Source: Paenirhizobium naphthalenivorans (GTDB lineage Bacteria; Pseudomonadota; Alphaproteobacteria; Rhizobiales; Rhizobiaceae). Taken from it: DNA of 64,000 nt. Positions 9,853-38,923 of the stretch are shown piece after piece. A program made the position numbers and the translations under genes. Within the stretch, counting starts at the first letter, position 1. Each line of letters opens with the position of its first letter. Where the stretch lies: NCBI RefSeq assembly GCF_007992095.1, contig NZ_BJZP01000014.1, positions 1 through 64,000 on the forward strand, written 5' to 3'. The notes under the pieces were generated by a model that made no database searches, was not told the origin of the DNA, and saw only the letters and a list, made by a program, of their open reading frames with translations.

Positions 9853-11157
9853 CTAGTTTCGGTACGCCCCTGGAAACACGATGTCCTGATCCACGAGGAC
9901 GTTGAACTTATATCCCGGCCTCATTTCAAGCGTCGGCTGGACGTTGAGATTCCGGCTGATGGTTTGCTCGGCGACGCGGCCGAAGCTCTCCGCGAAATTC
10001 CGCCTTGCCGCATCAGAAGCCGTCTCCTGCGTGGCGAGCGTCGAGCTTTCCGGCAGCGACGCATCGATCCCGGTCCCGATCAGCGCGATCAGTGCGGCCG
10101 AGCCGAACGTTCTCCAATAGTGGTTGTTCACCTTGTCGTGGAATCCGGCATAGCCCTGAGCATCGGTGCCGGCCATGCCGCCGATCTGGAGCGTTGAGCC
10201 GTTCGGGAAAATGAGGTCCGTCCAGACAACGAGAACGCGGCTTTGCCCGAACGACACCTTGCTGTCATAGCGGCCGAATAGTTTCGCCCCTTGCGGGATC
10301 AGAAGCCGGTGGCCCGTGGCGCTATCATAGACGTTCTGGCCGACTTGAGCGGTAATACGCCCGGGAAGGTCCGAATTGATGCCGGTTATCATCGTCGCCG
10401 GGATGACCGAACCGCGCTTCAGCTCATAGAGGGACTGCTGCGGCACGACGCGGTTCGGCAGATATCCCAGGTCCTTGAGATCGGCGTTGAAGAAATCCTC
10501 CTTGGACTTCTGGCCATTCTGGTCGACATTCTGCTCCGCGAGCCCTGCCCGCAGAGCCGCGGCATAAAGGTCCGGCATCGTTGCGGTTGCCGTTGGCGAT
10601 GCCGTGGACGTATCAGCCGGCGTTTGGTCGCTGGTTTTGGCGCTCGCCTCCAGTTTGCTGCGGTCGATGGCAAGCGGCGCGTCATAGGCCGCGTCGTTGG
10701 CCTGCAGCCGCGCCATTCTCTGGCGCTGCCGCTCGCGCAGATATTGCTCTTGTTGCTCACGCTGCAGACGCGCACGCCAAACCGTATCTGGCTCCAGTAC
10801 CTGCGTTTTTTGTTCCTCCCTTGCCGGCTGCGCCGTAAAGGGATTCGGTGCCTTGTCTTCTTTTTTCTCGACCGGCGTCGGCTGGAACGCAACCCGCTGC
10901 TCGGTGTCGCCAATAATGCCATCGCTGATACCGCGCTTGATCTGATCGGCGAAAGTCGAGGCAGGCGTTCCGGTGTTGGTTTCCAGGCCGGGGTCCTGTT
11001 TGAAAAAGAGCCCGCGTGAGGTGAGCCCGTAAAAGATCACCCCGAGAAAGGCGATCACCAGCACGATCACGATGATGATCGGCAGGCGGTTGATCCGGCG
11101 CATGCCGGATTGGGCCTCCTCGTTCGTGGCCCCGCCAAGCTTGAGAGATTGTATCAT
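9853..11157 (-). CDS. trbI: Conjugal transfer protein TrbI (VirB10-like)
   Basis: A 434-residue bitopic protein. It has a short cytoplasmic N-terminus, one membrane helix (LPIIIVIVLVIAFLGVIFYG) near residue 25-45, a Pro/Gln-rich periplasmic linker, and a C-terminal VirB10 beta-barrel domain from about 230 (SVIPATMITGINSDLPGRITAQ, LLIPQGAKLFGRYDS, LIFPNGSTLQIGGM). TrbI spans both membranes and forms the core channel with TrbG and TrbH. It is the last gene of the traI-trb operon, 12 bp after trbH. Length is normal and nothing is broken. Confidence 0.95.
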   Translation of the reverse strand: MIQSLKLGGATNEEAQSGMRRINRLPIIIVIVLVIAFLGVIFYGLTSRGLFFKQDPGLETNTGTPASTFADQIKRGISDGIIGDTEQRVAFQPTPVEKKEDKAPNPFTAQPAREEQKTQVLEPDTVWRARLQREQQEQYLRERQRQRMARLQANDAAYDAPLAIDRSKLEASAKTSDQTPADTSTASPTATATMPDLYAAALRAGLAEQNVDQNGQKSKEDFFNADLKDLGYLPNRVVPQQSLYELKRGSVIPATMITGINSDLPGRITAQVGQNVYDSATGHRLLIPQGAKLFGRYDSKVSFGQSRVLVVWTDLIFPNGSTLQIGGMAGTDAQGYAGFHDKVNNHYWRTFGSAALIALIGTGIDASLPESSTLATQETASDAARRNFAESFGRVAEQTISRNLNVQPTLEMRPGYKFNVLVDQDIVFPGAYRN

Positions 11158-26301: not shown

Positions 26302-27411
26302 ATGGCCTATGAAATAGGTGATTTGCCTCTGGCGACCCTTTTTCCGGCGGTCGCTCACGCCGAGGATCAACTGGCGCGCCTCGATGAAATTGTACGGCGC
26401 AGCCCAGTCGGACCGGGGTTCATCGAGCGGGCACACTTCCATGACGCCGCCGCCAGCATGTGGATCGCCGGCGAGCTCGTGCACGTCGAAGACCTGGTTC
26501 TCCACGATGCTGAGCGGGATGTTCGGGCTCCAACGCACGACATCACCATCGCGCATTCTATCCTCCGGACACGGCGGCGCATAGCCGGGGCGGAGGCGGA
26601 TTGGGCGACCAACCCATCGGGGATCGAAAACCTGATTAGCCGGGCTTCTATCCCGCCCGGGTGCGAGGGGTTAGGGGAGGGCGCGCGGGCGTCGTTCGCA
26701 GAGGCGGCGTTGGATGAGGACCATGATGCCTTCGCTGCGGAGATGGCCGAAATCGACGCGCTTCTTGACCGTTCGGCTCGCACGCTCGCTGCCGCGGGGA
26801 AGGACCGGGAACACAAGGCAGGGTCGTTGGCAGTCGGTGAACTGATCATCCGGGATCCGGACTGGGACGAAGGCGGCCGGCTTTCGGAATGGAAAGCCGT
26901 CATGCAGCAGGTTGCGGCAATGCCGCCGACGCTCGGCGCTGCGATCCTTTGGGATGCGTGGGAAATTCTGGAACCGCTGCAAAGACAACATTGGCTCGGT
27001 GCGCAGCTCGTGAGTTCCTATCTTCGCGCGCGCGGCAAGCTCGCATCGCACCTGTTCGGCCTCAATTTTGGCCTGAAGACTATTTCGCGCGAACGGCGCC
27101 GGTCTCGGGACCGGACGTCGCGACTGCTCGCCGGGCTTGAGGCCATGGCGGAGGGAGCAGCGTTGGGGATGAAGGAGATCATTCGGCTCGGCCAGGCGCG
27201 GGATCGCCTCGAGCGAAAGCTGCAAGGAAAGCGGTCGTCAAGCAGCCTTCCCGGTGTCGTGGATTTGCTTTTAACCCGGCCGATCGTCTCGTCATCGATG
27301 ATCGTGAAACAACTGAAAGTGAGCCATCGCGCTGCGCTCGATCTGGTCGCCGAACTTGGCGTCCGGGAAGTGACGGGGCGGGGAAGCTTTCGGGCGTGGG
27401 GCGTGTGGTAG
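26302..27411 (+). CDS. DUF1612 / HTH protein of the RHE_PE00001 family
   Basis: A 369-residue protein. The N-terminal part (PLATLFPAVAHAEDQLARLD, ERAHFHDAAASMWIAGELVH, HDITIAHSILRTRRRIAGAE) matches the rhizobial plasmid family named after RHE_PE00001. The C-terminus is a helix-turn-helix (GVVDLLLTRPIVSSSMIVKQ, SHRAALDLVAELGVREVTGR). Function is unknown; DNA binding or control of integration/recombination has been suggested by the HTH only. A diverged, broken copy of its 3' end lies at 34.2-34.5 kb, beyond the CBASS module. Confidence 0.8.
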   Translation: MAYEIGDLPLATLFPAVAHAEDQLARLDEIVRRSPVGPGFIERAHFHDAAASMWIAGELVHVEDLVLHDAERDVRAPTHDITIAHSILRTRRRIAGAEADWATNPSGIENLISRASIPPGCEGLGEGARASFAEAALDEDHDAFAAEMAEIDALLDRSARTLAAAGKDREHKAGSLAVGELIIRDPDWDEGGRLSEWKAVMQQVAAMPPTLGAAILWDAWEILEPLQRQHWLGAQLVSSYLRARGKLASHLFGLNFGLKTISRERRRSRDRTSRLLAGLEAMAEGAALGMKEIIRLGQARDRLERKLQGKRSSSSLPGVVDLLLTRPIVSSSMIVKQLKVSHRAALDLVAELGVREVTGRGSFRAWGVW

Positions 27412-27508: not shown

Positions 27509-29062
27509 CTACTGTGGCTGCACAGTCAGCATTCCGCTGTTCGGCTTCGACATGGGCAAGGTGAGGGCGGCCGCGTAGGATCGTCCGCGCGCCCCGTCGA
27601 AATCAAATTCGTAGAGCCGAACCGTGCCGAGCGCCGTCTGGCGCTGGCCGAGGAAAAAGGTGAAGGCGTTCGGCGCCGCAACGAAGAGATGCGCCAATCC
27701 GCTGCCGCCCGCCTTTGCATCGCGCACCGCTCCGCTTGCCGCATCCGCGAGCTCAAATGCGTGCCGTCCGCACCTCACCGATTGCGCGCCTGGCCCCGTT
27801 CTGGGTTTGAGGATGAGGAGCCGGCCGACTGTCGAGAGCGTGGTTTCGCAAAAACGCCGGACATCGGCCGCCACGTCATGCGTCAGCCCGATCGCTACGG
27901 CAAGGTCCGGTTCGTCCGGCCGCAATTCGACGATCTCTGAATCGAGGGTAGGCCATTCGGGATCCGGGATCGAGTCGTCGGCCGACCAGATGCGACGGCC
28001 AGTCCCTCGCTGCTCCAGCTCGACCTGACGCCCCGACTTGATGTTGATCACCGATCCCGCGGCAAAGGCGAGCGTAGCGTGTGCATCGAGGGCGAGCCGT
28101 AGGCGCGGCTGATCCTTCGCCGCAGCAAGGAGGAAGGCTCTCAATTCGGGATAGAGCTTCGCCTCCCAGTCCGCGTCGCTACGGATATAACGCTCGTCGA
28201 AGGACGGGATCAGGTCGAGGACGAGGTGGCAGCGTTCCTCGAGCCTGTCGAAGGCGTGCTCAAAGGATTTGACGCCATAGACCCTGGGCCCGCTCTGTGT
28301 CGATCCAAGAATATCCTCCCGAGCGCAAACCGCGCGGAAGCTTGCGCGATCAAATTCGAGGCGTCCCTGTGCCATCCACTGGAAGATGATGTCGTCATAG
28401 GGAAACGCGCTCTGGTTCGCCGGGATGCGTTGCAGGCCCACCAATCCGAACAGAATGTCGAGCTGATCACGGAGGCCATCCAGGGTGTCGGTTGCCTCGC
28501 CGAACGCGAGCGTGCGCGCCAGGATGCGCAGCTCCGCCTCGTCGATACCGAGATGCTCCCGCCATGCCTTGCGCACGGAGCCCGCCTTGCTGTTGTCGGT
28601 GACGGAGCCATAAAGGCGATCGAGACGCACAGCGCCTGAACGCATTCCGACCATCTGGCGCAATGGGTCGGCGCGATCGAGTCGCCAGTTCGTCACCAGC
28701 TTGAAGCGCACGCCGCTCCCGGATGGAGCATAGCTGAGCTGCGCCTCTCGTGCCCGCTGCAGCAATGAGCGGGCATTGGCGTTGATGAACTCCGGATCGA
28801 CGAGATGAGCGTAGCCGTAGTTGTCGGGCGTCACGTGCCATTTGCACTGCATGTGTTCGCGCAGCAGCGGCTCACCATACTGATCGGAAGCGCAGCGAAC
28901 GGGGTCATACTCGACCCAGATGTCATCGAAGCTCTTTGGCCCGCTCTCGAACCCGACTTTCATGACGGGGCTTAGCGGATCCAGCAGGCGAGCGGCGTGC
29001 CACCAGAAAAGCCGGGCCTGGAAGGTGTCGCCGTCGCGCCGGACAGTTACGGCCTGTGTCAT
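27509..29062 (-). CDS. cap4: CBASS effector: nuclease-SAVED protein (Cap4-like)
   Basis: A 517-residue effector. Residues about 1-150 resemble the DUF4297/PD-(D/E)XK nuclease of Cap4, with an acidic pair (KSFDDIWVEYDP, D46-D47) and a QCK strand (EHMQCKWHV, about 72-74). The C-terminal half is a SAVED domain: DLAVAIGLTHDVAADVRRF, LILKPRTGPGAQSVRCGRHA, LAHLFVAAPNAFTFFLGQRQ, VRLYEFDFD. SAVED binds the cyclic oligonucleotide made by the CD-NTase, switching on the nuclease to degrade DNA and halt infection. Last gene of the operon, 9 bp after the ATPase gene. Confidence 0.88.
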   Translation of the reverse strand: MTQAVTVRRDGDTFQARLFWWHAARLLDPLSPVMKVGFESGPKSFDDIWVEYDPVRCASDQYGEPLLREHMQCKWHVTPDNYGYAHLVDPEFINANARSLLQRAREAQLSYAPSGSGVRFKLVTNWRLDRADPLRQMVGMRSGAVRLDRLYGSVTDNSKAGSVRKAWREHLGIDEAELRILARTLAFGEATDTLDGLRDQLDILFGLVGLQRIPANQSAFPYDDIIFQWMAQGRLEFDRASFRAVCAREDILGSTQSGPRVYGVKSFEHAFDRLEERCHLVLDLIPSFDERYIRSDADWEAKLYPELRAFLLAAAKDQPRLRLALDAHATLAFAAGSVINIKSGRQVELEQRGTGRRIWSADDSIPDPEWPTLDSEIVELRPDEPDLAVAIGLTHDVAADVRRFCETTLSTVGRLLILKPRTGPGAQSVRCGRHAFELADAASGAVRDAKAGGSGLAHLFVAAPNAFTFFLGQRQTALGTVRLYEFDFDGARGRSYAAALTLPMSKPNSGMLTVQPQ

Positions 29063-29071
29063 GCCTTCACC

Positions 29072-30019
29072 TCACGCCGCCGCTTCGCCGTCCCGGAAGG
29101 GCGGTGTTGGAACCATGGTTCGGGCGATCTCCACGGCGCGAGCACCATCGATCGGTTTCGACGGATAGGCGTCGAGCACGATCGCAGGGAGAAGCCTTTG
29201 GGTCAGGTCAGAAAAGGTGAAACCATAGTCGCGGCCGCCGCGCTGTGGTCCGGTTGCTGCCACCAGCGCGTCGATCTGCTGGCGAGCGAGGCCGATCGGC
29301 TGCAGGCGGGCGGCGAGGACGAATCGGCGCTGCTCGTCGCCAGGACGCGCGAAAGTCAGCACGTCGGCCGCCCTGCGGCGCACCGCCGGGTCGAGCGCGC
29401 TGATGCGGTTGGTGCACATGAGAACCGCCGCTGGCAGTTTCGCGTTGGCAATACGGTCGATGCCCCGGATAAAGGCATTCACGCCCGCCTTGTCCTCATG
29501 ATGCATCTGCGCTGCCTCGCGCGATTGGGCGAGGGCATCCGCCTCATCGACGAGCAGAATGACGGCGCCACGAGCTTTGCCCGAGGCGGATTTTAGCTTG
29601 CTCGCCTCTGCCACGGTGTAGTCGAAGGCGGCAGAGATGAGTTGCGTCATCTCGCCCACACGCCCCTGGCCGCGGGTCGAGAGACTGAGCGGCAGGAGCG
29701 TGATATCGATCTTCTCCTGCCGAGCGACGGCGTCGCCGATCGTCTCGGCAAGCTCCGTCTTTCCCGAGCCGACGTCGCCGGCGAGAACAACAAGCGGCGG
29801 ACGCCGCAACACCGTGTCGAGAAGAGCGTCAGCATCGGGATGATGCTGGCGCGCCCAGGCTGCAAGGCCCGCCGGGTTAACGAGCAGACCGAGAATTTTC
29901 GCCAGACGGCTCTTCTGATCATCTAGGCCGATCAACCGCGCGAGCCGAGCCTGCGGGTCGAAGTCGGGATATGTGATGCGCCGTTCGAAGAGTTCGTCCA
30001 GTGTCGGCTTCGTATTCAT
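29072..30019 (-). CDS. cap6: CBASS TRIP13/Pch2-like AAA+ ATPase (Cap6)
   Basis: A 315-residue AAA+ protein. Walker A is GDVGSGKTEL (about 81-90), Walker B AVILLVDEADAL (about 152-163), sensor 1 VLMCTNRISALDP and arginine-finger region RRRAADVLTF. In type III CBASS the TRIP13-like ATPase unfolds or remodels the HORMA protein and so turns the enzyme off. Start ATG 30019 shares a base with the HORMA gene stop (TGATG), so production is coupled to its substrate. Identification rests on the AAA motifs plus the HORMA and CD-NTase neighbours. Confidence 0.88.
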   Translation of the reverse strand: MNTKPTLDELFERRITYPDFDPQARLARLIGLDDQKSRLAKILGLLVNPAGLAAWARQHHPDADALLDTVLRRPPLVVLAGDVGSGKTELAETIGDAVARQEKIDITLLPLSLSTRGQGRVGEMTQLISAAFDYTVAEASKLKSASGKARGAVILLVDEADALAQSREAAQMHHEDKAGVNAFIRGIDRIANAKLPAAVLMCTNRISALDPAVRRRAADVLTFARPGDEQRRFVLAARLQPIGLARQQIDALVAATGPQRGGRDYGFTFSDLTQRLLPAIVLDAYPSKPIDGARAVEIARTMVPTPPFRDGEAAA

Positions 30020-30534
30020 CAGAAGCTCCTCACGGTCGCGCGATCGAGGGCCTTGCCACCAGACGAATAGGTCCGGTCGCTGGCGAGATAGCCGGTGATG
30101 CCAGGTTCTGCCGCTCCGCCACGCGAAATCGGGAGCGTCTTCTCGAAGGCGTCGCGCTCCGCTTGCGTGAGCTGGCTCCAGGCCGCGCTGTAGGTGAGGT
30201 AGCTCTTGAAAACCGCACCGCTGACATTGGCGTTGTGGCGAACGCGGCCGGGATCGTCGTCATTCGCAGAGGCGCCGGCGAGATCCTTCGCGGTGTAGCG
30301 CAGCGTCGGCTCGATCCAGTTGCCGTTCCTCTGAAAGCCATAGGTGACCGTGCCGAGATAGCCGGCCCGGATCAACTCGGTGACCTCGGCCTCAAACTGC
30401 TCGATGCGCTCATCTGAAGGGCTGCCGTAAAAGCGCTGCATGCGCTTGAGATCGGCCGCGACCTTGGCGGCCATGTGCCGCGCATGGGTGACCGTGAAGG
30501 TTGCGGTTTCCGTGTAGCTGTAGCTCGTGGACAT
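30019..30534 (-). CDS. cap7: CBASS HORMA-domain protein (Cap7)
   Basis: 171 residues starting at MSTSYSYTETATFTVTHARH. The N-terminal helix AAKVAADLKRMQRFYGSP, the strands around IRAGYLGTVTYGFQRNGNWI and the TLRYTAKDLAG segment fit bacterial HORMA1-type proteins found with CD-NTases. HORMA proteins bind a closure peptide, then activate the CD-NTase. The C-terminal tail (ASDRTYSSGGKALDRATVRS) may act as the safety belt or a binding tail. ATG 30534 follows GAGG and lies 8 bp after the CD-NTase stop; upstream in-frame starts overlap that gene. Confidence 0.82.
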   Translation of the reverse strand: MSTSYSYTETATFTVTHARHMAAKVAADLKRMQRFYGSPSDERIEQFEAEVTELIRAGYLGTVTYGFQRNGNWIEPTLRYTAKDLAGASANDDDPGRVRHNANVSGAVFKSYLTYSAAWSQLTQAERDAFEKTLPISRGGAAEPGITGYLASDRTYSSGGKALDRATVRSF

Positions 30535-30542
30535 GGGCGACC

Positions 30543-31508
30543 TCATACCTGGAACGAAGAGCCGAAGACCTTTTGCCAATAGGCGACGGTCAACTGCTTG
30601 TTGGGAGCGGCGAGCGCTGCGTCGATGGCGTCGCCAGCATCGAGGGCGGCCTCGACGATCGAATCGGCATTCGCGGCCGTGTAGAGACGCGCGACGTTGT
30701 TGACGGCGTTCACCGGGTCGACGATCTGGACCGGGTCGGTGAATGTTCCGACCGAAGAGGCGGGATAGTAGTCTCCGAAAACGATCTTCTCCCGGAAATC
30801 GGTGCGGGCGATATAGGTGAAGAAATGCTGTAGCGCCTCCGGATAGTCGGAGAAATCCAGCCCGTCATCGCAAAGCTTGGCGAGGATCATCTCGATCATG
30901 AAGGACTTGAAGCGGAAGCCATCGCGCTCCTGCTTCATGCGCCTTGACCAGAATTTCGCGAGACGCACCACCTGTGCAAAATGCTTCTCCTGGGCACGCT
31001 TGCGCTTGCCCGCGAACTCCAAGTGCAAAGGAATGCTCGTCTTCAGGAACGAGCCGTCATCCTGGCTGACGAGGTTCCCGTACCACTGCGCGTCGCCGTC
31101 ATAGAGGATCGGCACCACGTCGACATCGAGCCCGCTGCCCCGGAAGGAGACAGTGACCGAGTAGGTCTGCGGCTGGACCTGGTCCGGGCTGAAGTTCGGG
31201 AATGCCTTGCGCAGCCGTTCGGCCAGATAATCGAGCAGCGCCTTGACGTCCTTCGGCGCCGCCGCGCCGCTGATGTAGCAGGCGACATCGATATCGTTGA
31301 GCGAACGAAGCGCCGTGCCTTTCGCCAGGCTGCCGGAGAGCATCATCTTCCTGAGCGTGAAGTCGGGGTGCTCAGACAGATAACCCTCGAGCTTCTCGCG
31401 AAGCCGCCGGGCTTGGGCCCGGTATTCATCCGCCTTGTCCTTCGGCAGGTTCACCTTGTCCTGCGCGAAGGCGGCGATCTCATTATGATCGACGTGCTGT
31501 CGCCCCAT
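30543..31508 (-). CDS. CBASS cGAS/DncV-like nucleotidyltransferase (CD-NTase, clade C/D type)
   Basis: A 321-residue CD-NTase. The active-site motif is GSLAKGTALRSLNDIDVACY: GS at about 59-60 and the two metal Asp at 72 and 74; the third Asp is in SGLDVDVVPILYDGD (about 128-130). Helical C-domain follows (RLAKFWSRRMKQERDGFRFK). On sensing infection, with HORMA help, it makes a cyclic oligonucleotide that binds the SAVED effector. HORMA/TRIP13 partners point to the CdnC or CdnD clade. First gene of the operon, with AGGAG upstream; its promoter lies at 31553-31581. Confidence 0.9.
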   Translation of the reverse strand: MGRQHVDHNEIAAFAQDKVNLPKDKADEYRAQARRLREKLEGYLSEHPDFTLRKMMLSGSLAKGTALRSLNDIDVACYISGAAAPKDVKALLDYLAERLRKAFPNFSPDQVQPQTYSVTVSFRGSGLDVDVVPILYDGDAQWYGNLVSQDDGSFLKTSIPLHLEFAGKRKRAQEKHFAQVVRLAKFWSRRMKQERDGFRFKSFMIEMILAKLCDDGLDFSDYPEALQHFFTYIARTDFREKIVFGDYYPASSVGTFTDPVQIVDPVNAVNNVARLYTAANADSIVEAALDAGDAIDAALAAPNKQLTVAYWQKVFGSSFQV

Positions 31509-31552
31509 ATCCCGCTCCTGTTTCCGGGCGCCTTGGGCCCAGCTGTCGCATG

Positions 31553-31581
31553 GATATAGTAGCTAAAAAATAGCTATTCAA
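31553..31581 (-). promoter_or_regulatory. Predicted CBASS operon promoter
   Basis: On the minus strand: TTGAAT (-35, 31576-31581), 17-bp spacer, TATATC (-10, 31553-31558), about 45 bp before the CD-NTase start. The -35 overlaps the first AATAGCTATT palindrome, so a protein bound there would block or alter CBASS transcription. Confidence 0.6.
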
Positions 31582-31601
31582 GAGGTGTAGCAATAGCTAT
31601 T
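31569..31601. promoter_or_regulatory. Twin operator candidate, two AATAGCTATT palindromes
   Basis: Two identical perfect 10-bp palindromes AATAGCTATT (31569-31578 and 31592-31601), centres 23 bp apart (about two helical turns). They lie between the CBASS promoter and the rightward promoter. Twin dyads at this spacing are typical of RHH or XRE repressor binding, and both protein types are encoded in the adjoining operon. Confidence 0.65.
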
Positions 31602-31606
31602 TCTCG

Positions 31607-31635
31607 TTGACAAATTCCCCTTGATTCTCTATATG
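31607..31635 (+). promoter_or_regulatory. Predicted promoter of the RHH-GNAT-XRE-ImmA operon
   Basis: TTGACA (31607-31612), 17-bp spacer, TATATG (31630-31635). Near-consensus sigma-70, 25 bp upstream of the RHH start codon. The second AATAGCTATT ends 5 bp upstream of the -35. Confidence 0.75.
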
Positions 31636-31659
31636 TTGCATATAACGACGGAGGATGAG

Positions 31660-31872
31660 ATGACGGCGAAGCGAACCATGACGCTGAACCTCACCGACGC
31701 CGAGATGCGTGTTCTGGACGATCTTTCGGCCCGGAAGGACATCACCAAGACCGCCGTGCTCCGGCAGGCCTTGCGCCTTTACCAGACGATCGATGCTAGG
31801 GTCGAAAGGGGTGAAAAGCTCCTGTTCGAGAATGACGCGACCAAGGAAAAGGCGGAGCTGATGCTTCTATGA
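31660..31872 (+). CDS. Ribbon-helix-helix (CopG/Arc-type) regulator or antitoxin
   Basis: A 70-residue protein. The N-terminal strand KRTMTLNLTDAEMRVLDDLS and helix KTAVLRQALRLYQTIDAR are a standard RHH fold; the C-terminal tail is charged. RHH proteins bind short palindromes as dimers and are common antitoxins. ATG 31660 is preceded by GGAGG, and 13 upstream codons in frame lie inside the promoter region. It is first in an operon with a GNAT gene, overlapping it as ATGA, the usual order for RHH-GNAT toxin-antitoxin pairs. Confidence 0.82.
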   Translation: MTAKRTMTLNLTDAEMRVLDDLSARKDITKTAVLRQALRLYQTIDARVERGEKLLFENDATKEKAELMLL

Positions 31873-32498
31873 CGGTCGAGGTATCGAAGGTCTATCTTCT
31901 CGACGTGTCAACGGGTGACGGCGTCGAAGCCGAACTGCGGGATGCCATCGAGCAGGCGCAGACCGATGATTGGGCAAAACACTGGATTCCCGCGATACTC
32001 GCAGCGATCCAGGATCTGGTCGCACGGCAGGTGCCGCGCGCGGATTGGCCTCAGAGCTTGCATTGGAACTGGCCGAAGAAGATTGCTCGCGTGCAGGGTA
32101 TGCTGGCCTTTCCCGGGTTCAGCGTTATCGCGCAGGGGATCACCCAAGGGCTCGCGCAACTCGACCTGACGAGGGCCTGCCAGGAGCCGAGCCAGAAGGG
32201 CAAGCCTCTCGTTTATGTCGAGTATCTCGAGGTCGCGCCCTGGAATCGCTCCGAACTCGGGGCGGCTCCTCGTCTGCGCGGCGTCGGGACCGTGCTGCTC
32301 ACGGCCGCCGTCGCGCTGAGTCACGAAGAAGGGTTCAAGGGGCGGATCGGCCTGCATTCCCTGCCTCAAGCCGACGCCTTCTACCGCAAGACCGGCATGA
32401 CCGACCTCGGGCCGGATCCTGCCTGTCAGAATTTGAGATATTTCGAGATGACCGTCGAGCAGGCTCGCGCATTCTTCGAAAAGGAGGAAGGACGATGA
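31869..32498 (+). CDS. GNAT-family N-acetyltransferase (possible toxin)
   Basis: A 209-residue protein. The central region has the GNAT strand YVEYLEVAPWNRSE followed by the acetyl-CoA loop RLRGVGTVLLTAAV (Arg/Gln-x-x-Gly-x-Gly pattern) at about 137-150, and a late helix-strand IGLHSLPQADAFYRKTGM typical of the C-terminal GNAT half. The first 100 residues are not recognised. RHH-paired GNAT toxins acetylate aminoacyl-tRNA, but this protein is longer and divergent, so the substrate is open. ATGA overlaps at both ends tie it to the RHH and XRE genes. Confidence 0.72.
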   Translation: MTVEVSKVYLLDVSTGDGVEAELRDAIEQAQTDDWAKHWIPAILAAIQDLVARQVPRADWPQSLHWNWPKKIARVQGMLAFPGFSVIAQGITQGLAQLDLTRACQEPSQKGKPLVYVEYLEVAPWNRSELGAAPRLRGVGTVLLTAAVALSHEEGFKGRIGLHSLPQADAFYRKTGMTDLGPDPACQNLRYFEMTVEQARAFFEKEEGR

Positions 32499-32995
32499 AA
32501 CTGGAACGGAGCAAAGAGTGGTGGATGGCTCGGGCACGTCGTGAAGGCGACGCCGTCATCGGCGCCGGCTTGCTCGCGTTCGATCCGATGCCGGAGGAGC
32601 GCCCTGCCGGCGCGTCGGCGGCGGTCGTCGAGGAAACCCGCATTGCGTTTGGCCGGTTCGTGAATCTGATGCGCCGGCGTTGCGGTTTCTCGATGGAGCG
32701 GCTGGCCCAGGTCGCGGACCTCGATGCCAGCGAGCTTCTGGTGATCGAGGACGATCTTCATTACGTCCCGGAACCACGCACGGTGTTCAAGCTGGCGGAG
32801 ACCTTCGAGGTTTCCCAGCAGCGGCTCATGCAGCTTGCGGGATTGGCCGCAGCGAACGATGCTGGCTTCCGTCAGGAAGCGGTGCGTTTTGCCGCGCGCT
32901 CCGAGGCCGTGCATAAACTGACCCCCGAGGAAAGCTCGGCTCTGGAGGCGTTCGTCGCCGTTCTGAGCGAGCAGCAGCCCAAGCGAGTGAAGTGA
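32495..32995 (+). CDS. XRE-family helix-turn-helix regulator
   Basis: A 166-residue protein. The region at about 50-115 is an XRE/Cro-like HTH: FGRFVNLMRRRCGFSMERLA, VADLDASELLVIEDDL, RTVFKLAETFEVSQQRLMQL. The C-terminal helices are acidic/Ala-rich. It overlaps the GNAT gene (ATGA) and the downstream metalloprotease gene (GTGA). XRE repressors next to ImmA/IrrE proteases are commonly cleaved by them to relieve repression; CapH/CapP pairs do this in some CBASS loci. It is a candidate repressor of the divergent CBASS operon. Confidence 0.85.
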   Translation: MKLERSKEWWMARARREGDAVIGAGLLAFDPMPEERPAGASAAVVEETRIAFGRFVNLMRRRCGFSMERLAQVADLDASELLVIEDDLHYVPEPRTVFKLAETFEVSQQRLMQLAGLAAANDAGFRQEAVRFAARSEAVHKLTPEESSALEAFVAVLSEQQPKRVK

Positions 32996-33918
32996 AGAAC
33001 GTCAGTCTCGGACATCGCACTATCGCCGACATCAACGGACAGGTTGCCAAGGTCCTGCGCGGTCTTGGCAACCCCGCGCCGCCCATAGACCTGCGCATCG
33101 TTCGCGATCTCCTGAAACTCGATCGAGGCTACTACAGCACGACCGACGACAGTCTCCTGCGAGAGATGTTCTCACGCATGAAGGTCGCTGGCCTGCAGGT
33201 CCTCAAGCGCCCGACAATCCTGCGCGAGGCCGTACAGACCCTCAGCCTCAAGGCTCTCTATCTTCCCGATCAGAAGCGCATCCTTCTCGACAAGGATCTC
33301 CCACCGCTCAAGCACCGCTGGAATGAGGCGCACGAGATCGGTCACGATATCATTCCCTGGCATGCGGGGATGATGTTGGGCGATACCGAGCAAACCCTCA
33401 CGCCTTCCTGCCACGCAGTCATGGAAGCCGAGGCGAACTTCGCGGCCGGGCAATTGCTCTTTCTGTCCGATCGCTTTGCTGAGGAGGCCATCTCCTCGGC
33501 GCCGAGCTTGGAGCTTGTAAAAAGCCTTAGCAAGAGCTTCGGCAATACTATGACGTCAACGCTTTGGCGGTTCGTCGAACAGGCGCATGGCGGTCGACCG
33601 ATCGTTGCCCTTGTGACCGGACATCCGCATCCCACACGCCGAAAGGCCGATTTCGACGCGGCAAATCCCTGCCGCTATTGTGTTGAATCGCCCCCCTTTC
33701 GTGAACGCTTTGGTGCCTTGCGCGAGATCGATCTGTTTGCTGCCATCGTCGGCTATTGTGGAGCACAGAGGGGCGGGTTTCTCGGCCGGAGCGAAGTCCT
33801 GCTGCAAGACCTCAATGGCGATCGGCACATGTTTGAGTTCGAGACCTTCTTCAACAGCCATGAAGCCTTGACGCTTGGTTCTTGGCTACGTCCATATAGT
33901 GCGTCGACGTGGCTGTAA
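32992..33918 (+). CDS. ImmA/IrrE-family metallo-endopeptidase
   Basis: A 308-residue protein. The zinc site is HEIGH (in NEAHEIGHDIIPWH, about residue 113), with the downstream Glu in MEAEANFAAGQLL. ImmA/IrrE (COG2856) proteases cut HTH repressors in response to DNA damage or other signals. Starts with GTG overlapping the XRE stop. The region after about 190 (GGRPIVALVTGHPHPTRRKA, PCRYCVESPPFRERF) may be a sensor part. With the XRE gene it resembles CapH/CapP, known CBASS regulators. Confidence 0.88.
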   Translation: MKNVSLGHRTIADINGQVAKVLRGLGNPAPPIDLRIVRDLLKLDRGYYSTTDDSLLREMFSRMKVAGLQVLKRPTILREAVQTLSLKALYLPDQKRILLDKDLPPLKHRWNEAHEIGHDIIPWHAGMMLGDTEQTLTPSCHAVMEAEANFAAGQLLFLSDRFAEEAISSAPSLELVKSLSKSFGNTMTSTLWRFVEQAHGGRPIVALVTGHPHPTRRKADFDAANPCRYCVESPPFRERFGALREIDLFAAIVGYCGAQRGGFLGRSEVLLQDLNGDRHMFEFETFFNSHEALTLGSWLRPYSASTWL

Positions 33919-34087: not shown

Positions 34088-34494
34088 CTAATCACAGCCG
34101 GAAAGAGCGTCTACTTCTGCACCCTGGCCGACCTTATTACCTCACTTGCGCGCGGCGAGCGGGAGGGCAGGTTGCAGGAACGGACAGGCGGGCTACATCC
34201 AGACGCTTGGCGACGTTCTCGGGAAGCGATAGCCCTAGGCGCCGATCTGGTGATGAAGGAGATCATCCGGCTCGGCCAGGTGCGGACCGCTTCGAACCAA
34301 AGCTGCAAGGAAAACGCTCGTCGAGTAGCTTGCCCGGCGTCATCGAACTTTTCATTGCGCGGCCGATCGTGTCCTCGTCGATGATTACCAAGGAATTGAA
34401 GGTGAGCCATCGAGCAGCTCTCAATCTCGTCGCCGAGCTTGGCGTCCGTGAAGTGACGGGGCGAGGTAGTTTCCGCGCCTGGGGTTTAATTTGA
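34088..34494 (+). pseudogene. Composite remnant: IS21 istB fragment joined to DUF1612 3' end
   Basis: The first part reads LITAGKSVYFCTLADLITSL then ARGEREGRL, which matches the C-terminal half of an IS21-type IstB ATPase. It then runs into the 3' end of a DUF1612/RHE_PE00001 gene (MKEIIRLGQ, then KLQGKRSSSSLPGVIELF, then SHRAALNLVAELGVREVTGR). A 1-nt deletion near 34279 shifts the frame between MKEIIRLGQ and KLQGKRSS relative to the intact gene at 26302. Nucleotide similarity to that gene is high but clearly not identical. It is a scar of past insertion and recombination. Confidence 0.75.
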
Positions 34495-34686
34495 GGTGGA
34501 CGCACTTTTCGAGGATGAAATTTGTCACGTCTGCGTGTCCGGTGTCCTGGGACCAAGGACGGGTGAGATGCTGCGATGATATTCGAGCCACGCGATGACG
34601 AATTGAGGGATTTTACGCTCCTCGATCGCAGGTCCGAGTTCACGGCGTTGACATTGCAATGAACCACATGTTTACCTGTCCTTGGT

Positions 34687-34726
34687 CAGAGGACAGAGGA
34701 CAGAGGACAGAGGACAGAGGACAGGA
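34687..34726. repeat. 7-bp tandem repeat (CAGAGGA x5) ahead of the wHTH gene
   Basis: Five exact CAGAGGA units plus a partial CAGGA, ending in the AGGAG that serves as Shine-Dalgarno for the ATG at 34736. Copy-number change would alter promoter-to-RBS spacing, a known way to vary expression. An in-frame TTG at 34682 reads through the repeat, so a 7-nt change could also switch the frame of an extended form. Confidence 0.85.
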
Positions 34727-34735
34727 GCGCTTTCG

Positions 34736-35305
34736 ATGATGAAGAGCCAGGATGTGGTCGTCCTGCTCAAGCTGGCGAGCTTGGAGGACGGCGAGCAAGA
34801 GATCGGTCAGCAACCCGCACGGCATGGCGTGGCGACGGGAGAAGATCCCTATTCCGTGCGCGGCCTCGAGGCGGCGCTCGGAATCAGCAAGACCGAGGTC
34901 AGTGCTTCGATCAAGCGCAGTCTCGGTTCAGGCCTTGCCATCAAGGATAGGAAGTTCGGGCGGCCGAAGCCGAACCGGCGCCAGCTCCGCGAGTTCATCG
35001 TCCATGGTCTGAAGTTCGTCTTTCCCGCCAAGCCAGGCCCAATGCAGCGCGGTGTACCTACTGCATTTGCCGCGCCTGTGCTTCGGGAATCCCTTCATAG
35101 CGCCGGCAGCCTCATCAGTGTGTGGGCCTATGCGCGTGGCCAGGAAATGGGGCAATCGATCGAGCCGCTCTTCAAAACGGTCCCGGAAGCCGCGGAAAAG
35201 GACGAGCGCCTGTACGCCTATCTCGCGCTCACCGACGCCATCCGCATCGGCAATCAACGCGAAGCTAGTGTAGCCGCCAACCTGCTGACGGAGAGGTTGG
35301 GATGA
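34736..35305 (+). CDS. Winged-helix protein, first gene of NTase-PP2C operon
   Basis: A 189-residue protein. The N-terminal HTH region (VVVLLKLASL, then SVRGLEAALGISKTEVSASI and KRSLGSGLAIKDRKFGRPK) is like the DNA-binding half of AbiEi-type antitoxins. The rest (REFIVHGLKFVFPAKPGPMQ, VWAYARGQEMGQSIEPLF) is unfamiliar. It overlaps the nucleotidyltransferase gene by 4 nt (ATGA). By analogy with AbiEi/AbiEii it may be the antitoxin and autorepressor of that enzyme. Start ATG 34736 has AGGAG 8 bp upstream. Confidence 0.7.
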   Translation: MMKSQDVVVLLKLASLEDGEQEIGQQPARHGVATGEDPYSVRGLEAALGISKTEVSASIKRSLGSGLAIKDRKFGRPKPNRRQLREFIVHGLKFVFPAKPGPMQRGVPTAFAAPVLRESLHSAGSLISVWAYARGQEMGQSIEPLFKTVPEAAEKDERLYAYLALTDAIRIGNQREASVAANLLTERLG

Positions 35306-36003
35306 CGGTACAGGGCCAATTGAAGGAAATGCTGAAGGCCGTCGCCGTGGCGCTCGGCGACGAGCTTCGGGCGCGCCTCGTCTTTGTCGGTGGCTGTACG
35401 ACCGCTCTCTACATTACCGATCCGATCACATTGGAAGGCGTCAGGGCGACCGACGATGTCGACTTGATCGTGGATCTCGCCGGTTTTGCGGAATGGGCGG
35501 AACTGATGGATCGGCTACGAGAGCGCGGTTTCGCAGAGGCAGCGGACGACAATGTCATCTGCCGCATGAGGCTTGGCGAGCTCAAGGTCGACTTCATGCC
35601 GGACGATGCGACGATCCTCGGCTTCAGCAATCGCTGGTATGCCAAAGGGGTTGAGACGGCGGTCCCGGCAATGCTGGAGAAAGCGCTCGAGATCCGGCAC
35701 CTCACGCCTCCTCTCTTCGTCGCGACGAAACTGGAGGCCTATCGCGGCCGTGGCGGAGGCGACCTCATCGGCAGTCGCGACACGGAGGACATCCTCTTGC
35801 TCGTTGACGGCCGCGAGGAGCTCGTGGAGGAGATCGCTGCGGCTGATCCCGAGATCCGAATCTATATCGCCGAGCAGATAACGGGCCTGCTGGCAGATCC
35901 CAACTTCGAGCATTTCCTTCAAGGAAATGTTCGGGGACCTGCAGGCCGTGCCGACATCGTCTACGAGCGCCTCGTCGAGATCAGCCGGTTGGACGGTCGC
36001 TGA
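35302..36003 (+). CDS. Nucleotidyltransferase, AbiEii-like
   Basis: A 233-residue protein with a minimal nucleotidyltransferase core: FVGGCTTALYITD, then RATDDVDLIVDL holding the metal Asp pair, and a third acid in ELKVDFMPDD. Lower motifs similar to AbiEii follow (ATKLEAYRGRG, IGSRDTEDILLLVDGR). AbiEii-like toxins (e.g. MenT) add nucleotides to tRNA 3' ends; the substrate here is unknown. Coupled to the upstream winged-helix gene, and 1 bp before the PP2C gene. Confidence 0.75.
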   Translation: MTVQGQLKEMLKAVAVALGDELRARLVFVGGCTTALYITDPITLEGVRATDDVDLIVDLAGFAEWAELMDRLRERGFAEAADDNVICRMRLGELKVDFMPDDATILGFSNRWYAKGVETAVPAMLEKALEIRHLTPPLFVATKLEAYRGRGGGDLIGSRDTEDILLLVDGREELVEEIAAADPEIRIYIAEQITGLLADPNFEHFLQGNVRGPAGRADIVYERLVEISRLDGR

Positions 36004-36004
36004 C

Positions 36005-36733
36005 ATGGCGTTCGCGATCCAATGGCACTGTCAGCAGGGAACGAGAACCGCGGACAATCGCGACCACGTTGGTATCGGCATTCGCGGCGATTCAATCCTG
36101 TCAATCGTTCTCGATGGATCGACGGCAGGATCGGCCAGCGGTCTGTTTGCGCGCGAAATTGCGCGGCGCGTGGTCGACTGGTTCGTGACCACGGTCGCCG
36201 AGATCACCGCCGAGACCGTGACTGAACAGCTTCGCATGACACATGCCGTCCTTGCCGCGGACTTCAAGAAGGACTCGGCAAGCTATGTCTTGGTGTATGC
36301 GGCAGCCGCGCTGCCTGCTATCGTGCTGCACGCAGGCGATTGCCTGCTTGGCCATCGCGATGCCGATGGACGGATATCATGGCTCTTGCAGCCTCATACG
36401 CTCGCGAATGCGCTCACGGCTGTTCCGCACGACGTTCTCGCGAAGTCGGACGCTCGGCACGTTCTCACACGAAGTTTCCGCTCTCGGAGCTTCATCGCTC
36501 CCGATCTGACGATGATCGACCTGCGGGATCAGACGTTGTTTGTCGCGACCGACGGATTCTGGGCAGACCTCGATCTCGACGGGCAGAATGCCTTTGTTGA
36601 AGGGCGGTTTCCCTCGAATGACGCGGAGCGGGATGATCGCGGTGTTCTCTCCATTTCGAGAACAACAGCGACGTCTTTGACCTCGGTCGCGGGCACCCAC
36701 GCGCCGGAAAGCCTTTATTTGCGACGAACCTGA
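36005..36733 (+). CDS. PP2C-like serine/threonine phosphatase
   Basis: A 242-residue protein with degenerate but recognisable PP2C motifs in order: GTRTADNRDHVGIG near residue 12-25 (canonical N-E-D replaced by N-R-D), SIVLDGSTAGSASG (canonical DGxGG altered), IVLHAGDCLLGHRDADG (GDS-like) and TLFVATDGFWADLD (SDG-like). The key metal-binding Asp residues appear kept. No kinase gene is adjacent. It starts 1 bp after the nucleotidyltransferase stop, so the three genes form one operon. It may act on a nucleotidylated or phosphorylated partner; that is inference. Confidence 0.75.
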   Translation: MAFAIQWHCQQGTRTADNRDHVGIGIRGDSILSIVLDGSTAGSASGLFAREIARRVVDWFVTTVAEITAETVTEQLRMTHAVLAADFKKDSASYVLVYAAAALPAIVLHAGDCLLGHRDADGRISWLLQPHTLANALTAVPHDVLAKSDARHVLTRSFRSRSFIAPDLTMIDLRDQTLFVATDGFWADLDLDGQNAFVEGRFPSNDAERDDRGVLSISRTTATSLTSVAGTHAPESLYLRRT

Positions 36734-36965: not shown

Positions 36966-38075
36966 ATGAAAGCCTATGAACGAATGAAAGAGATCGAACT
37001 CCAGCTTGCGGGCGCCCTGCGCCAGCAATTGGAAAGGATTCCTTCGCTCGAAATCCGCTCGATCGTGGCAGAGGCAGAGTTGCGGACGAACGGCTCCATG
37101 CGAGCGCAGCGCCCCGATGTGCTGGCCCAAGTTCGTATCCACAATCACGAAGTCACATTGGTCTGCGAGGTGAAGGAGCCGGCATACCCGCGACAGATCA
37201 GACAGGCCATCGATACGCTATCCCTCTACATAGCCAGGAGCGAAAACAAGGCCCTTCACGAGAGCATGGTTCCGCTCGTTGCTGCCTCGTGGCTTTCGCC
37301 CGAATCGCGCGAGATCTGCGCGGGGGCCGGAATGGGGTGGCTCGACCTGGCCGGCAACTGCCGCATCGCGTTCGACGGCGTCTTCATTGAACGGGAAACG
37401 GCAGAGCGCCCGAAGCCGGCCGCCCGCAACTATCGCGCCGTGTTCTCGCCAAAGGCTGGCCAGGTTCTACGCACGCTTCTGCGCGATCCGGCGCGGACCT
37501 GGAGAGTGACCGAGCTTGCGGAGGCATCGGACGTCAGCCTTGGCCACGTCAGTAACGTCCGTTCAGCCCTGCGCGATCGTGAATGGGGGACCGTCGGTGA
37601 GGAGGGTCTCCACCTGACTGCGCCCGACGCTCTGCTCGACGCATGGCGTGATTCCTATGAGCCGGTCCGGGGCAAGCGAACGTCCTGGTACAGCATTCTC
37701 CATGGGCGGCAGTGGGAAGAGACGCTGCGTGAGGCATTGTGGAGGCCGCAAACCGAAGGGCATGCCATGCTTGGCGGGCTTTCGGCCGCGCAGTGGCTTG
37801 CGCCCTACATGCGCGGCAATACCACGACACTCTACGCCGATACCTCCGTGGTGCCGGAGCTGATCGAAACACTCAAGTTGAAGTCAACCAAAAGCGGCGC
37901 CAATGTCGAGATTATCGAGCCCGATGATCCAGCTATCCTGAAGGAGCGCGTGGAGATTCCCGGCGCCCCACCCGTGTCGTCACCGGTTCTGACGTATCTA
38001 GACCTTTCGCAGCTCGACGATCGAGGGCGAGAGGCCGCCGATCATCTGAGAGAGAAGCTGCTAAAATGGCATTAG
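36966..38075 (+). CDS. abiEi: Type IV TA antitoxin, AbiEi family
   Basis: A 369-residue protein. The first about 150 residues look like a nuclease-fold-like or ligand domain (PDVLAQVRIHNHEVTLVCEV, GMGWLDLAGNCRIAFDGVFI). A winged helix lies at about 160-220 (AGQVLRTLLRDPARTWRVTE, EASDVSLGHVSNVRSALRDR). The C-terminal domain (GLSAAQWLAPYMRGNTTTLY) matches the AbiEi C-domain. It should neutralise AbiEii and repress the operon through the inverted repeats just upstream. No good SD precedes ATG 36966. It overlaps abiEii by 10 nt. Confidence 0.85.
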   Translation: MKAYERMKEIELQLAGALRQQLERIPSLEIRSIVAEAELRTNGSMRAQRPDVLAQVRIHNHEVTLVCEVKEPAYPRQIRQAIDTLSLYIARSENKALHESMVPLVAASWLSPESREICAGAGMGWLDLAGNCRIAFDGVFIERETAERPKPAARNYRAVFSPKAGQVLRTLLRDPARTWRVTELAEASDVSLGHVSNVRSALRDREWGTVGEEGLHLTAPDALLDAWRDSYEPVRGKRTSWYSILHGRQWEETLREALWRPQTEGHAMLGGLSAAQWLAPYMRGNTTTLYADTSVVPELIETLKLKSTKSGANVEIIEPDDPAILKERVEIPGAPPVSSPVLTYLDLSQLDDRGREAADHLREKLLKWH

Positions 38076-38923
38076 CGCCTGACCCACAATCTGCTGCCGA
38101 CTATACCGATCGCGTCACCGAAGCGGTCAAATCCGCGCTCCTCGAGATTGGCCAGATCCTTGGCAGCTTCGAGGGCAAATTTGCCGTTGTCGGCGGCGCG
38201 GTTCCTTGGCTGCTCCTTCAGGCCGACGACATGCGGCATGTCGGCACGATCGACGTGGATTTGACGCTCAATGCGGAAGCGCTCGGCGATGGCGAGTATG
38301 TTCGGCTCGTCGATGCCTTGATGAAAAACGGATACGCGCAAAGCGCCGACCACAAACGCTTTCAGCTTGTGCGTACGGTCGAGGCCGCGGATGGCGGCCC
38401 GCCTATCGAGGTGATCGTCGACTTTCTGATGCCGCGCGATGCTGAGATCGAGAAGAACATTCCGCCGATCCTGTCGGAGTTCGCGGTCCAGCGTGCATCC
38501 GGCGCCGAGCTCGCAATTCGCTTCCACCAGCTGACGGCAGTTGAAGGAGTAATGCCCGGCGGCGGCCGCAACCGCGTCGAGATCGCGGTCGCTTCCATCC
38601 CGGCCCTGCTTGCCATGAAGGGACAGGCGCTTCTGCGGCGGAAGAAACGCAAGGACGCCTATGACGTCTACTACTGCATTCGCAACTACGAAGGCGGGCC
38701 CGAGGCGCTGGCGGAGCTCTGCCGCCCTCTGCTTGAGATCAAGGAGGCGCGCGAGGGCTATCTGGGAATTGCCGAGAAATTCTCTGCCGAAGACATGATC
38801 GGACCGGTGTGGGTCCGCCAGTTCGTCGAGGGAACGCCGGCCATCGGTGATAGGACCCCGGAGCAGTGGCAGCGGGATGCCTTCGGTCAGGTGCAGGCCT
38901 GGATGGCCGCACTCGGCCTCTAG
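38066..38923 (+). CDS. abiEii: Nucleotidyltransferase toxin, AbiEii family
   Basis: A 285-residue protein. Motif I is FAVVGGAVPWLLLQADD leading to TIDVDLTLNAEAL with the Asp pair; motif II includes IEVIVDFLMPRD; lower motifs include LAMKGQALLRRKKRKDAYDV, the conserved Lys and Asp of AbiEii. AbiEii-type toxins modify tRNA and stop growth, giving abortive infection. Coupled to abiEi by a 10-nt overlap. It ends 4 nt into the truncated dinB gene on the other strand. Confidence 0.88.
   Translation: MALAPDPQSAADYTDRVTEAVKSALLEIGQILGSFEGKFAVVGGAVPWLLLQADDMRHVGTIDVDLTLNAEALGDGEYVRLVDALMKNGYAQSADHKRFQLVRTVEAADGGPPIEVIVDFLMPRDAEIEKNIPPILSEFAVQRASGAELAIRFHQLTAVEGVMPGGGRNRVEIAVASIPALLAMKGQALLRRKKRKDAYDVYYCIRNYEGGPEALAELCRPLLEIKEAREGYLGIAEKFSAEDMIGPVWVRQFVEGTPAIGDRTPEQWQRDAFGQVQAWMAALGL

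Follow-up and report, generated by a model that had tools for sequence, protein, structure and literature searches.

A conserved lattice of short dyads beside an RHH-GNAT-XRE-ImmA cassette as a predicted shared operator of divergent defence operons

The window is a stretch of 64,000 nt at the start of Paenirhizobium naphthalenivorans contig NZ_BJZP01000014.1. Its minus strand carries a complete type III CBASS operon (CD-NTase, HORMA, TRIP13, effector), and divergent from it on the plus strand lies a tight four-gene operon, RHH-GNAT-XRE-ImmA, hereafter the cassette:

27509..29062, minus strand: CBASS SAVED endonuclease effector (profile searches)
29072..30019, minus strand: CBASS TRIP13-like ATPase (profile searches)
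30019..30579, minus strand: CBASS HORMA protein (profile searches)
30543..31508, minus strand: CBASS CD-NTase (profile searches)
31660..31872, plus strand: RHH (CopG-like), 70 aa, predicted reader of TRGCYA (profile evidence)
31869..32498, plus strand: GNAT acetyltransferase, 209 aa (profile and model)
32495..32995, plus strand: XRE, 166 aa, CapH/SinR-like HTH with acidic recognition segment (profile)
32992..33918, plus strand: ImmA/IrrE (CapP-like) metallopeptidase, 308 aa, HExxH (profile)

Against RHH_1, the RHH of the window scored 17.4 bits (E 0.0042), below the Pfam gathering score of 20.5, and profile comparison placed CopG as the nearest solved sequence (E 0.0093). Its strand TMTLNL is invariant in 37 of 37 sequences, although K[KR]TMTLNL was also among the two search patterns by which RHH relatives were collected. 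The end of the RHH gene (31872) overlaps the start of the GNAT gene (31869), whose product was modelled with a pLDDT of 91.6. The model returned 290 PDB matches at E ≤ 0.001 to many different GNATs, AtaT, the 7byy toxin and GmvT among them, the best structural matches being unspecific; in the acetyl-CoA loop, G140 is invariant and G138 nearly so (29 sequences). For the XRE protein, profile comparison returned SinR first and CapH (7t5u) at E 0.0011, while its structural model (pLDDT 76) gave weak PDB matches, the best at E 0.003. The ImmA profile matches IrrE and CapP, with PADLOC capP at E 7.7e-12, and H114, E115, H118 and E145, i.e. HExxH plus a further glutamate, are invariant in 36 sequences.

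The intergenic region contains two exact copies of the 10-bp palindrome AATAGCTATT, at 31569–31578 and 31592–31601, spaced by 23 bp as the preliminary description had reported. They are the only copies in the 64-kb window, for which shuffling gave a mean of 0.01 and no case of two copies in 100 shuffles. Likewise, none of 5000 local dinucleotide shuffles of 31509–31659 contained two copies of AATAGCTATT, three TAGCTA hexamers, or a TAGCTA pair at 11 bp. TAGCTA forms the core of both palindromes (starting at 31571 and 31594) and is present a third time at 31560–31565, a copy overlooked previously that lies 11 bp from the core of palindrome 1. Together with the predicted promoters, the region reads as follows:

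31553..31558, minus strand: predicted -10 of the CBASS operon, TATATC (17 bp from TTGAAT)
31560..31565, no strand: predicted operator site 1, TAGCTA (window sequence and family grid)
31571..31576, no strand: predicted operator site 2, TAGCTA, core of palindrome 1 (11 bp from site 1)
31576..31581, minus strand: predicted -35 of the CBASS operon, TTGAAT (comparative conservation)
31582..31587, no strand: grid position of site 3, degenerate in the window (GAGGTG)
31594..31599, no strand: predicted operator site 4, TAGCTA, core of palindrome 2 (window sequence)
31607..31612, plus strand: predicted -35 of the RHH operon, TTGACA (7-bp gap after site 4)
31630..31635, plus strand: predicted -10 of the RHH operon, TATATG (17-bp spacer)

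Palindrome 1 shares 3 bp with the minus-strand TTGAAT, and palindrome 2 ends 5 bp ahead of TTGACA; the earlier placement of one on the CBASS -35 and of the other just before the -35 of the divergent operon was thus correct. Site 1 falls entirely within the 17-bp spacer of the predicted CBASS promoter, as do five bases of site 2, the sixth and last being part of the predicted -35. In the plasmid locus L002 of Nitrobacter, site 3 reads TAGCTA without a mismatch; site 4 of the window is 34 rather than 33 bp from site 1, i.e. 1 bp off the family grid. A stricter sigma-70 consensus scan called no promoter in 30000–33500, since its -10 rule admits only T as the sixth base; the window promoters are predicted from comparative conservation. 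TATATGTTGCATATA, considered as a third palindrome over the RHH -10 (31630–31644), was discarded as an operator, relatives inspected by eye keeping only the -10.

Scanning genomes with an RHH alignment yielded 205 relatives; the best 80 were retained and, joined by the window and by seven loci on plasmids, gave a set of 88 loci. Removal of 22 near-duplicates (>30% shared upstream 8-mers) left 66 distinct upstream regions, 58 from the RHH scan and eight (the window and the seven plasmid loci) found by, or selected for, DNA similarity that can include the operator. Across its whole length, the CBASS-plus-cassette block is matched at 73–77% DNA identity in four plasmid records, two from Methylocystis bryophila; three of the four were fetched. 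Genes in fetched loci were called by profile search plus longest open frames. Judged by profile hits, 52 of the 66 loci have all four genes, seven RHH-GNAT-XRE, four RHH-GNAT, two RHH-XRE and one RHH alone, the label ‘RHH-GNAT’ being unreliable for L018 (a GNAT remnant only) and L052 (a Peptidase_M78 gene found later), and ImmA matches being partial in L047, L068 and L073 among others. L091–L093, L098–L100, L122 (probably the same as L073) and L123 were read later and stand outside the 66.

Cassette-bearing records are titled Alpha-, Beta- and Gammaproteobacteria, Planctomycetes, Gemmatimonadetes, Acidobacteria and others. An RHH of the cassette family is nevertheless rare, being found at E ≤ 1e-5 in two of 385 genomes of the class and two of 398 of the phylum, the own genome included in both cases. 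A GNAT search in 100 relatives of the own genome returned the own copy and one weak partial match. Among the cyanobacterial GNAT relatives listed, the three that were read (L095–L097) were set aside, being without an annotated cassette and without sites in the stretches examined.

Comparison of the upstream regions revealed the conserved unit as a 6-bp dyad, TRGCYA, repeated at 11-bp steps, and not the 10-bp palindrome. In total, 153 sites were found, with at least one in each of the 66 regions—a predicted short dyadic operator upstream of every cassette's own RHH gene—at least two in 54 and a pair at 11 bp in 48. TAGCTA accounts for 88 sites, TGGCTA for 25, TAGCCA for 22 and TGGCCA for 18. 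Distances between sites peak at 11 bp (56 pairs), 22 bp (19), 33 bp (15) and 44 bp (5), with shoulders at 23 bp (4) and 34 bp (5), where the last core of the window falls; the Nitrobacter locus L002 has four TAGCTA at exact 11-bp steps. By comparison, 200 shuffles gave 15.4 sites and a mean of 0.01 pair at 11 bp against the 56 observed, and control windows at four offsets (59–66 regions each, 251 in total) contained 19 sites and no pair. Of the 56 pairs, 45, spread over 41 loci, come from the set of 58 fetched by RHH protein similarity alone. An 11-bp pair is missing from 18 of the 66 relatives; 12 of the 66 have a single hexamer, and ten of those 12 belong to the ‘other’ partner class described below. 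Among five further plasmid loci with RHH outside the count, L098 and L099 have an 11-bp pair, while L092, L093 and L100 have sites without one; L123, from the 398-genome search, combines the pair with all four genes and a Bub-like operon.

These data bear on the idea that the twin AATAGCTATT copies are two operators lying two helical turns apart and cooperatively bound, as the preliminary description had it. Two exact copies are present in the window, but in the window alone (1/66), and a single copy occurs in seven of the 66 relatives; the AA..TT flanks that extend the core accompany just 14 of the 153 sites. The conserved step is 11 and not 23 bp (56 versus 4 pairs), and the near relatives L009 and L010 (95% protein identity) keep the cores while losing the left flank of palindrome 2. 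Conservation therefore holds for the TRGCYA cores and not for the exact twin palindromes, and neither the 10-bp palindrome as functional unit nor the two-turn working distance is supported by comparison; we regard this reading as very improbable. Within the own 4.95-Mb genome, TRGCYA-N5-TRGCYA occurs at three places versus ten for the reversed control. The genome encodes a single RHH of the cassette family, and a wider regulon was rejected, no other TRGCYA-N5-TRGCYA there adjoining such an RHH.

The partners of the 66 cassettes fall into CBASS (18), Bub (24) and other (24), so that CBASS or Bub is divergent to the cassette in 42 loci. Bub here denotes the multiubiquitin/ThiF/DUF6527 operons from which the same four genes diverge on other plasmids, and which we take to be the ‘Bub’ operons of the CapK+CapS literature. 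The ‘other’ class includes L006, with a Bub-like operon downstream of the cassette, Bil-like genes in L044, a DUF2188/TIR operon in L085 and an MBL gene matching PDC-M48B in L088, as well as array-bearing loci for which no divergent defence operon was recognised. Bil-like genes also lie opposite the cassette in Bradyrhizobium L092, which is not among the 66. A four-protein tree (72 loci, quick method) implies at least two CBASS/Bub changes, and eight over the three partner classes; partners are therefore stable within clades yet exchanged. In five related type III CBASS operons without RHH, the slot of the cassette is filled by HTH+ImmA in two (Burkholderia L130, Thauera L134) and by a WYL regulator in two (A. 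vitis L131, R. brockwellii L132), with nothing annotated in one (L133).

Promoters in relatives were called by a -35 at a fixed place, a spacer of 16–18 bp and at least four of six matches in each hexamer. Among loci having the operator pair, such promoters surround it in 13 of 18 CBASS, 10 of 22 Bub and one of eight other loci, the last being L085, which has a divergent operon. The divergent -35/-10 elements around the pair are thus kept mainly where a divergent defence operon is present. Comparison in this way bears out the back-to-back promoters proposed earlier, and the promoter hexamers flanking the operator pair in relatives agree with the proposal of one shared region placed to control both operons.

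We consider it likely that the intergenic region is the shared operator of the RHH-GNAT-XRE-ImmA cassette, bound by RHH with repression of both operons. The preliminary description had considered both RHH and XRE as binders. That XRE reads the array as CapH does, with ImmA cleaving it directly off the DNA, would fit its CapH/SinR-like character by profile and, weakly, by structure, its good conservation and its pairing with a CapP-like protease. Sites persist, however, in L045, L049 and L050, where no XRE/ImmA was detected, two of the three with an 11-bp pair; in L049, the gene two places after RHH weakly matches a putative zinc peptidase (below cut-off) and may encode a far-diverged protease. 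Conversely, TRGCYA was absent upstream in eight of eight RHH-less XRE-ImmA loci, six of them facing ThiF-containing Bub-like operons, and in five of five RHH-less type III CBASS loci, these controls being hand-picked, not random, from lists of 34 and 63 records. As few chance hexamers are expected in these 13 short regions anyway (0.23 per 160-bp region in shuffles), it is the contrast with 66/66 that counts. L091, an XRE-ImmA locus outside the eight with no RHH seen, has no site upstream and one inside a coding stretch. Some RHH-less loci instead have longer spaced inverted repeats, e.g. CTCGACAT-N7-ATGTCGAG, and no second operator for XRE was seen by eye within the cassette region.

The recognition segment of XRE is acidic in 39 of 39 cassettes (net charge -2 to -6, median -5). 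Eight RHH-less XREs range from -2 to +1, the two groups thus meeting at -2, and SinR has +1. It is the RHH gene, and not the defence system, that the array accompanies, since it is kept beside Bub operons too. Together, the RHH-linked sites and the acidic segment lead us to infer RHH as the reader and point to an XRE that would not bind DNA in the usual way. RHH thus stands as the predicted binder; XRE is a decidedly unlikely one. Another alternative is an ordinary autoregulated RHH-GNAT toxin-antitoxin that happens to adjoin CBASS, with CBASS repression incidental and XRE-ImmA a separate unit. Gene order and overlap are as in AtaRT and KacAT, L045 and L050 have RHH-GNAT without detected XRE-ImmA or defence genes, and the array also occurs in loci without a recognised divergent defence operon. 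Yet 42 of the 66 cassettes face CBASS or Bub and some others Bil-like or candidate systems, the operator pair sits within the spacer of the defence promoter, the same slot is elsewhere occupied by known kinds of controller, and 52 of 66 loci have hits to all four genes. We deem this alternative unlikely.

The sequence itself shows the array, its association with the RHH gene, its position within the predicted promoters and an intact protease motif; how RHH might control both operons can be sketched from these. RHH dimers would bind one per TRGCYA dyad, one helical turn apart, along one face of the DNA. At sites 1 and 2, they would occupy the CBASS promoter spacer, and at site 4 they would adjoin the cassette's own -35; given this placement in or near both promoters, bound RHH is proposed to shut both operons, with GNAT possibly acting as a co-repressor in the manner of AtaR-AtaT. 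Cleavage of DdrO by PprI/IrrE is triggered by ssDNA, and CapP is reported to act on CapH likewise (PMC10904395). In the proposed relay, a DNA-damage or phage signal would cause the CapP-like ImmA protease to cut the CapH-like XRE, and loss of XRE would weaken the RHH complex and release both promoters. This relay relieving repression is speculative, and our judgement leans somewhat against it; a candidate contact of XRE to the RHH complex is its conserved N-terminal segment (W9, E17, G25). More tentative still, and rather doubtful, is the idea that DNA reading has moved from a CapH-like protein to the RHH-GNAT pair, XRE having become a DNA-blind, protease-cut adaptor that holds RHH-GNAT on a one-turn lattice within the spacer of the promoter of the respective partner defence system, be it CBASS, Bub, Bil-like, TIR or MBL, i.e. 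a two-layer interchangeable immune controller.

Several known systems invite comparison. Like CapH+CapP, the cassette pairs a CapH-like HTH XRE with a CapP/IrrE-like HExxH protease, divergent beside CBASS or Bub, and type III CBASS operons related to that of the window have such HTH+ImmA pairs in place of the cassette; in contrast to CapH+CapP, it has two extra leading genes (RHH, GNAT), its operator follows RHH, and its XREs carry an acidic recognition segment and an N-terminal extension. It resembles CapK+CapS and CapW/BrxR as a controller adjoining an immune operon—a WYL gene, of the CapW kind, takes the slot in L131 and L132—but its protein families are unrelated to theirs. Arc binds tandem small dyads about one turn apart, and the cassette resembles the CopG/Arc class in that CopG is the nearest solved sequence to its RHH and in its small tandem dyads at about this spacing; what differs is that the TRGCYA array can comprise four dyads, with two lying in the spacer of a divergent promoter. 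AtaR is an RHH protein, and KacAT, TacAT and GmvAT are further RHH-GNAT toxin-antitoxin pairs. As in AtaRT, the RHH gene comes first and overlaps the GNAT gene; unlike in these pairs, the 209-aa GNAT has unspecific best matches and is a putative toxin only, and the operon continues into XRE-ImmA. In AtaRT, antitoxin and toxin form a 2:1 complex with high affinity for the operator, and an excess of toxin weakens this binding (PMC10135005); by analogy, the cassette GNAT may act on operator binding as AtaT does.

According to the EMBO J 2026 CapK+CapS paper (PMC13373217), CapK+CapS adjoin CBASS, Bil and Bub, and CapW or CapH+CapP accompany 219 of the 544 Bub operons; the terms ‘ribbon-helix-helix’, ‘CopG’, ‘GNAT’ and ‘ImmA’ are absent from its main text. 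A search of the literature on CBASS with GNAT and CopG found no description of the cassette; the main CapH+CapP and Bub papers lay outside its coverage and may describe or count it. Judged by sequence comparison, the cassette is a variant of known defence-operon controllers, and comparison supports the one-regulator idea. Silencing of self-killing defence systems has few worked cases (CapW, CapH+CapP, CapK+CapS), to which the cassette would add another arrangement. Its operator is simple enough for prediction from sequence, the TRGCYA lattice together with RHH could mark defence operons, and the cassette may link GNAT toxin-antitoxin-like pairs to CBASS/Bub control.

Inspection of individual loci yielded further observations. 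On the Jiella plasmid L006, two controllers surround one Bub-like operon: besides the cassette there is an independent HTH+ImmA pair, which has an inverted repeat of its own, CTCGACAT-N7-ATGTCGAG, at 9951–9973; a related repeat, ATGTCGA-N2-TCGACAT, precedes the HTH gene of the CBASS locus L130. DUF2188 genes are divergent to the cassette in Gemmobacter L100 (3915–4145) and in Herminiimonas L085 (7021–8721), where the gene is assigned to PDC-S16 and precedes one for a PDC-S35 TIR protein; they possibly represent another defence system under the same control. A Rhodothermales MAG (L060, 9848–11023) has RHH and XRE, with no GNAT detected, followed by a DrmC-like gene of DISARM type.

Viral contigs contain 16 RHH relatives, eight with TMTLNL, and no array was found in the stretches examined, one of the 16 having a single TRGCYA hexamer beside its start. 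A phage-borne cassette was rejected, the GNAT search of viral contigs giving 28 pattern matches and no relative by tblastn. The RHH proteins of phage contigs L101–L110 combine a TMTLNL-like strand with an RQALRLYQ helix, without the operator array; it is conceivable that such a phage RHH is a mimic repressing or titrating the host controller.

In the window, an intact RHE_PE00001-family gene (26302–27411) flanks the CBASS-plus-cassette block on one side, and a partial 3′ copy of this gene, about 7083 bp further on, flanks it on the other (34223–34484; 76–77% identical). L003 and L004 likewise have RHE_PE00001 genes close to the block, which suggests a hot spot at which defence genes insert. 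Shortly after the cassette, at 34682–36733, three adjacent genes match the PADLOC candidates PDC-M21A, B and C, and a two-gene unit at 36966–38923, its second gene with a weak AbiEii match, is possibly an AbiE-like pair.
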